Origin: Paenibacillus bovis
GTDB taxonomy: Bacteria > Bacillota > Bacilli > Bacillales > Bacillaceae_C
NCBI GenBank assembly: GCA_007679095.1
Contig: VEFU01000011.1
Span: 1 to 64,000 of the forward strand
Length of the DNA stretch: 64,000 nucleotides
Direction of reading: 5' to 3'
Shown piece after piece: positions 33,050 to 41,624 of this stretch. Both the position numbers and the translations under genes were made by a program. The notes under the pieces are model-generated. The model made no database searches and was not told the DNA's origin. It saw nothing but the letters and a program-made list of their open reading frames with translations. How positions within the stretch are numbered: position 1 is the first letter of the stretch; every line of letters begins with the position of its first letter.

Positions 33050-34540
33050 TTGAGTGTATTAGTTTCCAAGCTGAAGGAAGTATTATATGCAGTTATCCCC
33101 ATTACTGTAATCGTTTTATTGTTGAATTTTACTGTTATACATCTCGAATCCTCTCTAATTATCCGATTTATAATTGGCGCTATCCTCATCATTATTGGGT
33201 TATCCATTTTCTTATTTGGAGTCGATATTGGCTTAACGATAATTGGCCAGAACATGGGGGCATCCATAGCAAAGTCAAATAAAATATGGGTAGTTATTAT
33301 TGCTGGGTTACTGTTAGGGTTTTTTATTTCTATTGCGGAGCCCGATTTACATATACTTGGCGGACAAATCGAGCTTGTAACATCTGGGTTAATCACAAAA
33401 TGGTTAATTGTAGTAATTGTATCGATTGGCATTGCAGCTTTACTCGCTTTTGGACTAGTAAGGATTGTATACAATATTCCACTTTACAAAGTACTTACTG
33501 TAATATATCTGCTTATTTTTGTAATAGCAATATTTACATCCCCAGAGTTTTTAGCTATATCCTTCGATGCTTCTGGAGCAACTACTGGCGCATTAACAGT
33601 TCCATTTATACTAGCACTTGCTTTAGGTGTATCATTATTGAAAAAGGATAGTAAAGCTTCTGAAAAGGATAGCTTTGGTTTAGTGGCTATTGCATCCACA
33701 GGAGCAATCATATCCGTTATGATTATGTCTATCGTTTCCAAGAGTGATAAAATATCAGGAAGCTTGGAGCAAGTGAATATTTCTAATTCAATTATCGGAC
33801 CTTTTATTAAAAAGCTTCCAATTATTACGGGTGAAGTCTTACTTGCCTTGCTACCTATTGTGATAATTTTTCTTATATTTCAAAAAATATCTTTTAAATT
33901 ATCAAAGAAGACTGTTCGAAATATTTTAATTGGAATATTTTTTACATTCATTGGACTAATCTTATTTTTAGTTGGTGTCAATGCTGGTTTTATGGATGTT
34001 GGTAGTGCGGTAGGCTATAGCATTGCTAATCTCGATAATAAAGCATATATTGTTATTGTCGCATTTGTACTTGGCTTCGTCACAATATTAGCGGAACCTG
34101 CTGTTCATGTTCTAACTCATCAAATTGAGGATGTTACAAGTGGCTATGTTAAGCGATCTATCGTAATGATTGCACTATCGATCGGAGTCGGGTTTGCGGT
34201 TTTACTTTCTATGTTAAGAATTATTATTCCTGACTTACAATTATGGCATTTACTCCTACCTGGGTACGCAATTGCGATTGCTATGACGTACTTTGTGCCA
34301 AAATTATTTGTAGGTATCGCCTTTGATTCCGGAGGGGTAGCATCAGGGCCTATGACTGCTACATTTATATTAGCGTTTGTTCAAGGGGCTGCAGAGGCAA
34401 TCGAAGGAGCAAATGTACTTGTAGACGGTTTTGGAATGATTGCGATGGTTGCGTTAACACCATTAATTGCATTACAAGTTTTAGGTGTTATTTTTAAATT
34501 AAAATCAAAAAAGGGGGGACTAGAAAGGAATGTGGAATAG
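33050..34540 (+). CDS. DUF1538 membrane protein (two repeats)
   Basis: A 496-residue membrane protein with two copies of DUF1538. Each copy has a helix pair ending in a GLTIIGQNMG or GFMDVGSAVG type segment, then IAEPDLHILGGQIE (copy 1) or LAEPAVHVLTHQIEDVTSG (copy 2), and a late FDASGATTGALTVPFILA or FDSGGVASGPMTATFILAF motif. The transported ion or molecule is unknown. The start is TTG at 33050 with GAAAGGG upstream. The stop overlaps the P-II gene by 11 bases, so the two are translationally linked. Confidence 0.9.
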   Translation: MSVLVSKLKEVLYAVIPITVIVLLLNFTVIHLESSLIIRFIIGAILIIIGLSIFLFGVDIGLTIIGQNMGASIAKSNKIWVVIIAGLLLGFFISIAEPDLHILGGQIELVTSGLITKWLIVVIVSIGIAALLAFGLVRIVYNIPLYKVLTVIYLLIFVIAIFTSPEFLAISFDASGATTGALTVPFILALALGVSLLKKDSKASEKDSFGLVAIASTGAIISVMIMSIVSKSDKISGSLEQVNISNSIIGPFIKKLPIITGEVLLALLPIVIIFLIFQKISFKLSKKTVRNILIGIFFTFIGLILFLVGVNAGFMDVGSAVGYSIANLDNKAYIVIVAFVLGFVTILAEPAVHVLTHQIEDVTSGYVKRSIVMIALSIGVGFAVLLSMLRIIIPDLQLWHLLLPGYAIAIAMTYFVPKLFVGIAFDSGGVASGPMTATFILAFVQGAAEAIEGANVLVDGFGMIAMVALTPLIALQVLGVIFKLKSKKGGLERNVE

Positions 34541-35198
34541 TTCTGAAATTGCCGATTATGAAATTGTTTGTGTTATTGTTAACTTCGGCCTTGGAAGTAA
34601 AATACTGCAAACAGCTAAGAAATGCGGTATTTCAGGTGGGACAGTGCTTCTAGGAAAGGGCACAATCAATAATCGTCTGCTGAATTTTCTAGCCTTATCC
34701 GAAATGAGAAAAGAAATTGTAGTAATGGTCTCTAATAAAACGACAGCTGATCAGGCATTGGAAGAGCTTGATAATAAATATAAATTTAATAAACCAGGTC
34801 ACGGGATAGCATTTACAATTCCTGTGAAGAATGTTTTCGGTGCTAGTAAGTGTAGACCAGATGATACGAAAGAAAGTAGGGGTGCAGAGAATACCATGTA
34901 TGATGCCATTACGATTATCGTGGAAAAAGGTAATGCAGAGTATGTAATCGACGCCGCAACCGAAGCTGGATCAAAAGGTGGAACAATTATCAATGCGAGA
35001 GGTTCTGGCATCCATGAAACAAGTAAATTGTTTTCGATGGAAATTGAACCTGAGAAAGAAATTGTGATGATCTTATCCAAAAAAGAAATAACAGATGCAA
35101 TCGTTACTTCGATTAGAAATAAACTGAAAATTGATGAGCCAGGAAATGGTATCATCTTTATTCAAGAAGTTAGTAGCACACACGGAATATATGAATAA
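34530..35198 (+). CDS. Tandem P-II-like regulatory protein
   Basis: A 222-residue protein with two P-II-like (GlnB-type) domains. Domain 1 is about residues 9-100 (YEIVCVIVNFGLGSKILQTAKKCGISGGTVLLGKG) and domain 2 about 125-215 (DAITIIVEKGNAEYVIDAATEAGSKGGTIINARGSG). Both carry the P-II-like GG-T element that starts the nucleotide-binding T-loop region; Tyr51-type uridylylation is not evident. P-II proteins often sit beside the membrane protein that they control, so this one likely gates the DUF1538 protein in response to a nucleotide or ion signal. Confidence 0.88.
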   Translation: MWNSSEIADYEIVCVIVNFGLGSKILQTAKKCGISGGTVLLGKGTINNRLLNFLALSEMRKEIVVMVSNKTTADQALEELDNKYKFNKPGHGIAFTIPVKNVFGASKCRPDDTKESRGAENTMYDAITIIVEKGNAEYVIDAATEAGSKGGTIINARGSGIHETSKLFSMEIEPEKEIVMILSKKEITDAIVTSIRNKLKIDEPGNGIIFIQEVSSTHGIYE

Positions 35199-39226: not shown

Positions 39227-41572
39227 ATGAATGAAGATTTATTGCTAGCTGCTAATATGAAATATCAAAGAGCTGAAGAAAAGGCAATAGCTTACTTTAA
39301 AGCACTACATACGCAAATGCAGGAGAAATATTATGTCTCAACGTTAACGAATGATATACATATATGGAAAAAACATCATATTCATTATCGTTGGAATGGG
39401 AGAAGAAAGTCTAAAACAAAGCATTATCGCCATTATATTGAATGGCTTAATTTTACAGGAAAATTAGATAATTATTTACAACGAAGTATATCCTATTTGT
39501 ATTTGCGTGATTTAGGAAAGCCTTTGGACAATGAGAAGACACAGACAAAGATACAAGAGGCAGTTGCTAGTTTGAAAAAAAGACTTTTATCTGATGACAA
39601 GTCAGAGTTTTTTAATATGGCTACTTTGTATCGATGGTCCCAAAAGTATGGGATTGAATCCACCATCATCTGGCTATTTGAAAAGCTAACAATTGTTTCC
39701 TCTAACATACCAGTGGGGATGGATAAAGAACATGCGAAAAGAAAACTAATTAAATTAATCGCAGGGGTTGTCATGCATGAATTTGAAGAAATAGATGATG
39801 ATCTATCTGAACAAGACCGTCAACTTAGACTTGATAAAGCAATAAGGCTTGGATATTGTTACGGATTAACATATCCGTTTATTGATGATCTTCTTGATGC
39901 TAATGTCTTAACGGAAACGGAGAAACAGCAATATACTAAAATCATTCGTATCTCCCTAATCACAGGTAATGTACCTCAACTCGGCGAATGGGTTGGTCCA
40001 AAAAAACAGCTTATCGAATTTGTACATCAAGAACTTAAGGCTGCTTTTGAGTATATAAAAGCTAATTTGAGTAGTGAAACACATACACAATTTTTCGAGC
40101 AAGCGTATATATTTTTTCATTCGCAGGAAATTGATCGTGAAAAGGACTTAGATAATGAACAGTATACAAATGAGGATATATATGTCCCGATTATCTTAAA
40201 ATCTGCGTATTCTAGATTAATTGCTAGAACGGTACTTAGCCCAGAAACGGATGAGGGCTTTAATAATCGAACTTTTTACTACGGGATATACAACCAGCTT
40301 GCAGATGACTTTGCTGATATGTTTGATGATATGGAGGAAGGTGCAGTTACTCCTTATACTTACTATTGGAAATATCATAAGAAGCGCAAAGACTTACTAA
40401 ATCCGTTTGAATTATACTGGACAGTTATTTGCAATCTAATTCATCATATTTATCAATCTGATCCTAATACAAGGGAAGTTATTTTAGCTCGAGCAATAAA
40501 TGGGATAAAACGTTTTAAAGAGAAATGTGGAAAAGAGCAATATAAAGAAGTAATGGGGATTTTTGCACCGTCAAATTCAAAATTTAACAATCTCATTCAA
40601 AAAGTGGTACGTCAAGCAGATGATGTGGACTTTTTTGATAAATTGCTGCGGGATGAAATGATTGCGAATTTGAGAAAAGAACAGAAAGAACAAGATGAAT
40701 TTACAGCTAACATGGAATCGATTCGAATTCAATTGAATAATGTTTTACCTATTCCTAAAAATGAACAAACATTATTGTTAGAAGAACCACTTATGGATGC
40801 GGTAAATTACAGTTTGGAGGGGGATGGAAAACGAATCCGACCATTCGTTGCTTGGATGATGGCAAAGCAGTATGGTCTTAATGAATCAGCTGTATTACCG
40901 TTATTAAAATCATTAGAATATATGCATACTGCTTCATTAATTTTTGATGATTTACCTTCACAAGATAATGCTGAAATACGGAGAGGGCGACCAACGCTAC
41001 ATCATATATATAATAGTGCGATTGCAGAATTAACTGGTTTATTTTTAACACAGAAAGCTATCGAAGAGCAGATATCCCTGAACGGTTTTGATGCTAAATT
41101 TGTTCTACGATTAATCCAATATTCTGCACAAAAAACAATGGAAATGTGTAAAGGTCAAGCTTTGGATTTAGAGTCTAAGGGAAAAAAGTTAACATTAGAG
41201 CAACTAAATTTGATGTGTTTTTATAAAACAGGAATTGCATTTGAAGCGTCTATTATTATGCCTCTAATACTTGTAAATGAGAAGCCATCACATATAGAGA
41301 TGTTTAAGAAGTTTGCTTATCATGCTGGCATTGCCTTTCAAATTAAAGATGATTTACTGGATGAGGAAGGGGATGTCGAAGTACTTGGAAAACCAATACA
41401 ACAAGATCTTGATAATAATAGTTCCACCTTTGTAACCGTCCTTGGAGTGGATGGGGCAAAAAAGGAAATGTGGGACCATTATTATCTTGCAATGGAAACT
41501 CTGCATCAAGTCCCACAAAAACCTGTATTTCTTAAATATTTGCTGGACTATATGGTTAATAGAAATCAATAA
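39227..41572 (+). CDS. Two-domain class I isoprenoid synthase (prenyl synthase fusion)
   Basis: A 781-residue cytoplasmic protein made of two class I isoprenoid-synthase-like halves. The C-terminal half (about 500-781) is a clear trans-prenyl diphosphate synthase: GDGKRIRPF (532-540), the first Asp-rich motif DDLPSQD (574-580) with RRGRPT, GQALDLE (643-649) and the second Asp-rich motif DDLLD (708-712). The N-terminal half also has two Asp-rich clusters: DDLLD (220-224) and DDFADMFDD (360-368), in helical context. The C-terminal half should make a prenyl diphosphate; the N-terminal half could be a cyclase or a second prenyltransferase. The product is unknown. It has no partner gene nearby, and a terminator follows. 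Confidence 0.85.
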   Translation: MNEDLLLAANMKYQRAEEKAIAYFKALHTQMQEKYYVSTLTNDIHIWKKHHIHYRWNGRRKSKTKHYRHYIEWLNFTGKLDNYLQRSISYLYLRDLGKPLDNEKTQTKIQEAVASLKKRLLSDDKSEFFNMATLYRWSQKYGIESTIIWLFEKLTIVSSNIPVGMDKEHAKRKLIKLIAGVVMHEFEEIDDDLSEQDRQLRLDKAIRLGYCYGLTYPFIDDLLDANVLTETEKQQYTKIIRISLITGNVPQLGEWVGPKKQLIEFVHQELKAAFEYIKANLSSETHTQFFEQAYIFFHSQEIDREKDLDNEQYTNEDIYVPIILKSAYSRLIARTVLSPETDEGFNNRTFYYGIYNQLADDFADMFDDMEEGAVTPYTYYWKYHKKRKDLLNPFELYWTVICNLIHHIYQSDPNTREVILARAINGIKRFKEKCGKEQYKEVMGIFAPSNSKFNNLIQKVVRQADDVDFFDKLLRDEMIANLRKEQKEQDEFTANMESIRIQLNNVLPIPKNEQTLLLEEPLMDAVNYSLEGDGKRIRPFVAWMMAKQYGLNESAVLPLLKSLEYMHTASLIFDDLPSQDNAEIRRGRPTLHHIYNSAIAELTGLFLTQKAIEEQISLNGFDAKFVLRLIQYSAQKTMEMCKGQALDLESKGKKLTLEQLNLMCFYKTGIAFEASIIMPLILVNEKPSHIEMFKKFAYHAGIAFQIKDDLLDEEGDVEVLGKPIQQDLDNNSSTFVTVLGVDGAKKEMWDHYYLAMETLHQVPQKPVFLKYLLDYMVNRNQ

Positions 41573-41576
41573 AAAA

Positions 41577-41624
41577 GAAGTAGTCCCTGGTTTAATAACG
41601 AAGTGTTGAACCAGGGACTACTTT
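41577..41624. terminator. Bidirectional terminator after the isoprenoid synthase
   Basis: Perfect 15-bp stem AAGTAGTCCCTGGTT/AACCAGGGACTACTT (41578-41592 with 41609-41623), with an A run on the left. Confidence 0.93.

Follow-up and report, generated by a model that had tools for sequence, protein, structure and literature searches.

One gene in the window (the whole 64,000-nucleotide stretch of Paenibacillus bovis DNA analysed here) encodes a fusion protein that is real, conserved and under-annotated. The evidence supports a single chain with two domains of the class I isoprenoid synthase type, the N-terminal one by structure prediction and conservation. We argue, with a probability of roughly 0.58, that the fusion would be a self-contained bifunctional terpene synthase working like the fungal PTTS chimeras, and we infer that the N-domain is the cyclase. 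The open reading frame and the two Asp clusters of its N-terminal half, DDLLD and DDFADMFDD, lie exactly where the initial annotation placed them (Table 1). The full-length AF2 model has a pLDDT of 84.0 and a pTM of 0.78.

Table 1. Parts of the fusion gene and the repeat that follows it.
Feature	Position	Strand	Basis
Whole gene, two-domain isoprenoid synthase, 781 aa	39227..41572	+	ORF with ATG start; full-length fused homologues
Residues 1-160, extra N-terminal helices of N-domain	39227..39706	+	AF2 helices; conservation
Residues ~161-465, class I isoprenoid synthase-type core, putative cyclase	39707..40621	+	Foldseek; weak PF00348
Putative N-domain metal motif 1, D220-D221-L-L-D224	39884..39898	+	Asp invariant in 50 homologues; C-terminal end of helix 217-224
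Residues 300-330, Q300/D303/R304 and K325/S326/S329/R330, degenerate GQxxD and KT counterparts	40124..40216	+	Invariant in 50 homologues; second-ranked hhalign path, P 0.07
Putative N-domain metal motif 2, D360-D361-F-A-D364-M-F-D-D368	40304..40330	+	D360, D361, D364, D368 invariant; D367 varies
Residues 466-506, predicted interdomain helical linker, conserved	40622..40744	+	AF2 helix 469-506; conservation
Residues 495-781, prenyl diphosphate synthase domain, FARM D574-D580, SARM D708-D712	40709..41569	+	PF00348; PDB 5ayp; L002 identity
Inverted repeat, likely bidirectional terminator	41578..41623	.	18-nt arms; folding energy

That the C-terminal half carries every prenyl diphosphate synthase motif was borne out by PF00348, which matches residues 521-747 with an E-value of 3.1e-50 (171 bits, cut-off 27), and by catalytic signatures that are invariant in 50 homologues: K535/R538, H567, DDLPxxD 574-580, R585-R586-G587, G643-Q644, D647, K667-T668, Q705 and D708-D709-x-x-D712. 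The FARM, SARM, GKR, RRG, GQ and KT motifs are all present and invariant or nearly so, with the FARM and SARM on AF2 helices 554-575 and 687-714. The closest solved structures are FPP/GGPP synthases (FPP synthase 5ayp, E 3.4e-42), and the identity to the FPP-synthase-like protein of the same genome (L002) is 33%. Judged by these signatures, the type II prenyl diphosphate synthase formed by residues ~495-781 is complete. Established mutagenesis of FPP synthases links the residue at position -5 from the first Asp motif to chain length. This residue is Ala in 50/50 of the fusion proteins; within the same genome, L002 has Tyr there and the long-chain-type L001 has Ala. Since Ala rather than Tyr is found at this position, the product should extend beyond C15. 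It is probably a C20 or longer diphosphate, with C20 or C25 as the suggested length.

Residues 1-480, modelled alone by AF2, are all-helical (pLDDT 81.8, pTM 0.82) and begin with helices 3-33, 35-51, 67-76, 80-96, 103-121, 131-140 and 144-159. When this domain was compared with the PDB by Foldseek, the best 50 matches listed were all class I isoprenoid synthases with a probability of 0.85-1.00; as the E-values are modest (4e-3 to 0.1), the TM-scores by query low (0.21-0.37) and the rmsd large (9-20 A), these matches indicate a fold class, not a family. Among the best 50 listed are octaprenyl, heptaprenyl, solanesyl and GGPP synthases, together with human squalene synthase, cucumene synthase, the diterpene synthases BjKS and LrdC, and CqsB4. 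In the model, motif 1 ends helix 195-215/217-224 and motif 2 ends helix 345-363, matching the placement of the FARM and SARM in the C-domain, and Q300/D303 and K325/S326 lie on helices in between, like GQxxD and KT. The prediction therefore has the alpha-fold of class I terpene synthases, with motifs at the C-terminal ends of two core helices, and the possibility raised initially, that residues 1-480 fold unlike class I synthases, did not materialize in the model. The best matches of the N-domain among viral models (BFVD) were uncharacterised Cedratvirus and Pithovirus proteins (A0A6G8MX44 and A0A481ZCB8), which are possibly isoprenoid synthase-fold proteins.

The Asp clusters are also conserved, as the survey of homologues called for by the initial annotation shows: D220, D221, D224, D360, D361, D364 and D368 are identical in 50/50 homologues, down to ~50% identity, whereas D367 varies. 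The other invariant residues of the N-domain include Q300, D303, R304, K325, S326, S329, R330, N356, Q357, L358, R422, N425, R429 and Y439. The N-terminal half had been described as lacking any clear prenyl synthase signature elsewhere. This needs correction, as degenerate signatures (Q300-x-x-D303-R304, K325-S326 and N356-Q357-x-x-D360-D361) are present, in the expected order and each on the matching helix. The chain-elongation signatures GKRxRP and RRG are absent from the N-domain. In class I terpene synthases, the residues of the NSE/DTE triad are spaced at i, i+4 and i+8. D360, D364 and D368 of motif 2 are spaced in the same way, so that motif 2 resembles in sequence the triad of terpene cyclases but is all-Asp; the literal NSE/DTE motif and the adjacent RY pair are both absent from the N-domain. 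Aromatic residues are enriched among the invariant positions of the N-core (14/59, Fisher p 0.007, uncorrected for sequence relatedness), compared with 7/50 in the C-domain (p 0.17, likewise uncorrected). A further invariant stretch, R86-S87-x-x-Y90-x-x-x-R94-D95-x-G97, is found in the extra N-terminal helices (window 39482-39517; 50 homologues).

Comparison of sequences places the N-domain nearest to prenyl synthases. Residues 1-480 gave no confident family match in Pfam or NCBIfam, their profile gave chance matches only against PDB sequences, and 0/17 members scanned matched a Pfam terpene-synthase family. A weak PF00348 match of the N-domain was found in 10/17 members (best E 0.0012). In five tabulated members, N-domain residues ~283-381 align to profile positions ~93-196, past the N-terminal part of the profile that holds the IPP site (GKRxRP/RRG), and motif 2 is set opposite the SARM. 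With hhalign, the sole match to prenyl synthases above the null spans 23 columns (32.0 against a shuffled maximum of 28.3) and pairs motif 1 of the N-domain with the second prenyl synthase motif, the SARM, while the second-ranked full path restores the expected register (P 0.07). Because of this pairing, support for the motif register comes from the order of the helices, from the weak Pfam match and from the weaker hhalign path. In HMMER, 577 neighbour ORFs and the shuffled controls rank below most prenyl synthases, mainly via the same 23-column motif. We considered an internal duplication from N- to C-domain, which is unsupported past that motif, and kinship to YtpB, which looks good by eye (motif spacing, and 'LSPxE...LTTGxxP' after motif 1), but the profile scores fall within controls (hhalign against PF10776 20.4; shuffled null mean 16.8, maximum 25.7; reversed 21.5). 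The most fitting description of the N-domain is a diverged domain of the class I isoprenoid synthase type, whose closest sequence relationship is to prenyl synthases and which has neither GKRxRP nor RRG. Its origin may be an ancient domain of the prenyl synthase kind, from which the IPP-binding signatures were lost.

How the two domains could work together is suggested by these features. The C-domain would condense DMAPP and IPP to a diphosphate that exceeds C15 and has C20 or above, which would then pass to the N-domain. There, DDLLD and the D360/D364/D368 triad would hold Mg ions, the diphosphate would be ionised, and the allylic cation would be cyclised in a pocket rich in invariant aromatic residues. 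The joined prenyl synthase and cyclase proposed initially thus stands as to the two class I-type domains, given the predicted fold and the invariant Asp residues, and is tentative as to the cyclase, since the N-domain lacks a literal NSE/DTE motif and significant similarity to a known terpene-synthase family.

The main rival, which we consider unlikely, is that the N-domain is a second coupling enzyme, joining chains head-to-head like squalene/phytoene synthases or transferring a long chain to an acceptor. Neither of its motifs is of the NSE kind; both are rich in Asp, like those of squalene and prenyl synthases. Squalene synthases and the carbazole prenyltransferase CqsB4, which has the same fold, are among the top structural matches listed. 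The genome has no gene of the SQS/PSY family (PF00494), a gap that a non-canonical coupling enzyme would therefore fill, and the invariant K173, K176, R304, K325 and R330 could grip a second diphosphate. On the other hand, D368, the third acid (i+8), is reminiscent of the cyclase triad, the N-domain showed no similarity to the single SQS/PSY sequence compared, and 52 neighbourhoods contained no recognised user of a coupled product.

It is improbable that the N-domain is a non-catalytic or chain-length-setting fused subunit, like the small subunits of heterodimeric synthases. The layout is heterodimer-like and 3aqb, a synthase of a heterodimeric system, is among the structural matches listed, but such small subunits are generally without intact Asp motifs, while none of the seven Asp residues of the N-domain varies across 50 proteins, and the C-domain carries every catalytic residue by itself. 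We give very little weight to an ordinary prenyl synthase with an unrelated helical N-terminal extension whose Asp clusters are not an active site: residues 1-480 do lack a confident sequence family and the structural E-values are modest, but the structural matches listed are isoprenoid synthases without exception, PF00348 matches weakly in 10/17 members, and the invariant motifs sit at helix ends as in the C-domain.

The fusion protein is a family widespread in Bacillota and not an isolated oddity. Homologues of residues 1-480 were found in 45/397 Bacillales genomes, where their occurrence is patchy even inside the genus of our strain, and in 8/398 genomes of a Bacillota sample, the present genome being one of them. 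A pattern scan of GTDB gave 16 loci, in Psychrobacillus, Paenibacillus (including P. polymyxa) and Pseudobacteroides. Every homologue of residues 1-480 is fused to a prenyl synthase, mostly in frames of ~790-800 aa, and no stand-alone N-domain was seen among them. Residues V467, F469, D471, K472, R475 and D476 of the linker are invariant in 50 homologues. As the distances of the N- and C-domains across 50 proteins are correlated with r 0.93, the fusion looks old and inherited as one unit. No relatives were found on plasmids and viral contigs. In 2/52 loci (L049:8001-10400 and L089, G347:C30:13065-14504), the frame is broken by a frameshift or TAG, due to assembly error or decay.

The gene stands alone among its neighbours. 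A short ORF on the opposite strand lies 289 bp upstream, and the inverted repeat directly after the stop (18-nt arms, folding at -32.2 kcal/mol, z -7.5) is followed by a convergent DUF3231 gene. Around 52 homologues, no recurrent isoprenoid-type neighbour was recognised (families assigned by eye except in the window), and neighbours vary by lineage. A recurrent neighbour of ~490 aa (cluster 10) looks SelO/YdiU-like by eye, and the neighbour block in Paenibacillus reflects shared synteny and contains no recognised isoprenoid gene. A lone gene without an isoprenoid partner is as expected for a one-gene pathway. Elsewhere in the window (33050-35198), a P-II-like gene overlaps the end of a DUF1538 protein gene, a possible membrane protein-regulator pair.

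The genome encodes two other PF00348 proteins (L001 and L002) and one YtpB (L050). Some relatives have a third, weakly scoring kind of PF00348 protein (G010:C7, G788:C15 and G012:C119) of ~300 aa and 56-77 bits, one of them with an internal TAA, which is possibly ComQ-like. In the genus g149 (G404, G451, G490 and G578), PF10776 appears as two matches inside one frame of 529-708 aa, which suggests an insertion.

We see about an even chance that the N-domain would represent a new bacterial lineage of class I cyclases, with an all-Asp motif 2, no recognised family and its own fused synthase, and that the fusion would be a counterpart of PTTS through which Bacillales and Paenibacillus make diterpenes, sesterterpenes or triterpenes. 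If so, the PTTS-like layout arose outside fungi too, in a conserved bacterial family with an unrecognised N-domain; the gene would provide a single-gene route from C5 units and would suggest that common soil bacteria, Paenibacillus polymyxa among them, make terpenes yet to be assigned.

Among known systems, the C-domain belongs to the type II (E)-prenyl diphosphate synthases (PF00348), and the N-domain has their fold class by prediction, along with degenerate forms of the Q-x-x-D-D, QxxD and K-S motifs. Unlike FPP/GGPP synthases, the N-domain is without the GKRxRP, RRG and HxxSLIxDD context that bind IPP for elongation. YtpB, or tetraprenyl-beta-curcumene synthase (PF10776), is likewise found in Bacillota, and its motif 2 (DYFIDQEED) has the same i, i+4, i+8 spacing, but YtpB is ~360 aa and unfused, and its two motifs are spaced by 164 as compared with 140 here.

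The closest parallel is with PTTS, in which an N-terminal cyclase and a C-terminal prenyltransferase form one chain (PMC8307374) of 700-800 aa in fungi (PMC8307374, PMC8190136). A 2021 survey called class I prenyltransferase-terpene synthase chimeras unique to fungi (PMC8307374), and we found no bacterial chimera in the open-licence papers searched. The present fusion shares the domain order of fungal PTTS such as the fusicoccadiene synthase PaFS, with a predicted N-terminal class I-fold domain and a C-terminal prenyltransferase, and has the DDXXD/N motif of the prenyltransferase in its SARM, DDLLD 708-712. It differs from PTTS in its bacterial host, in the type II FARM (DDLPxxD 574-580), a DDxxxxD, as its first prenyltransferase motif, and in an N-domain of ~480 aa that starts with ~160 extra helical residues, does not significantly resemble any Pfam terpene-synthase family and has DDLLD but an all-Asp D360/D364/D368 in place of NSE/DTE. 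As this last feature departs from PTTS and the cyclase role is inferred, we do not file the fusion as a PTTS. The domains of PaFS are joined by a flexible linker of ~70 residues (PMC8190136), unlike the conserved helix predicted at residues 466-506 here, which would offer a contrast case for intermediate transfer in chimeras.
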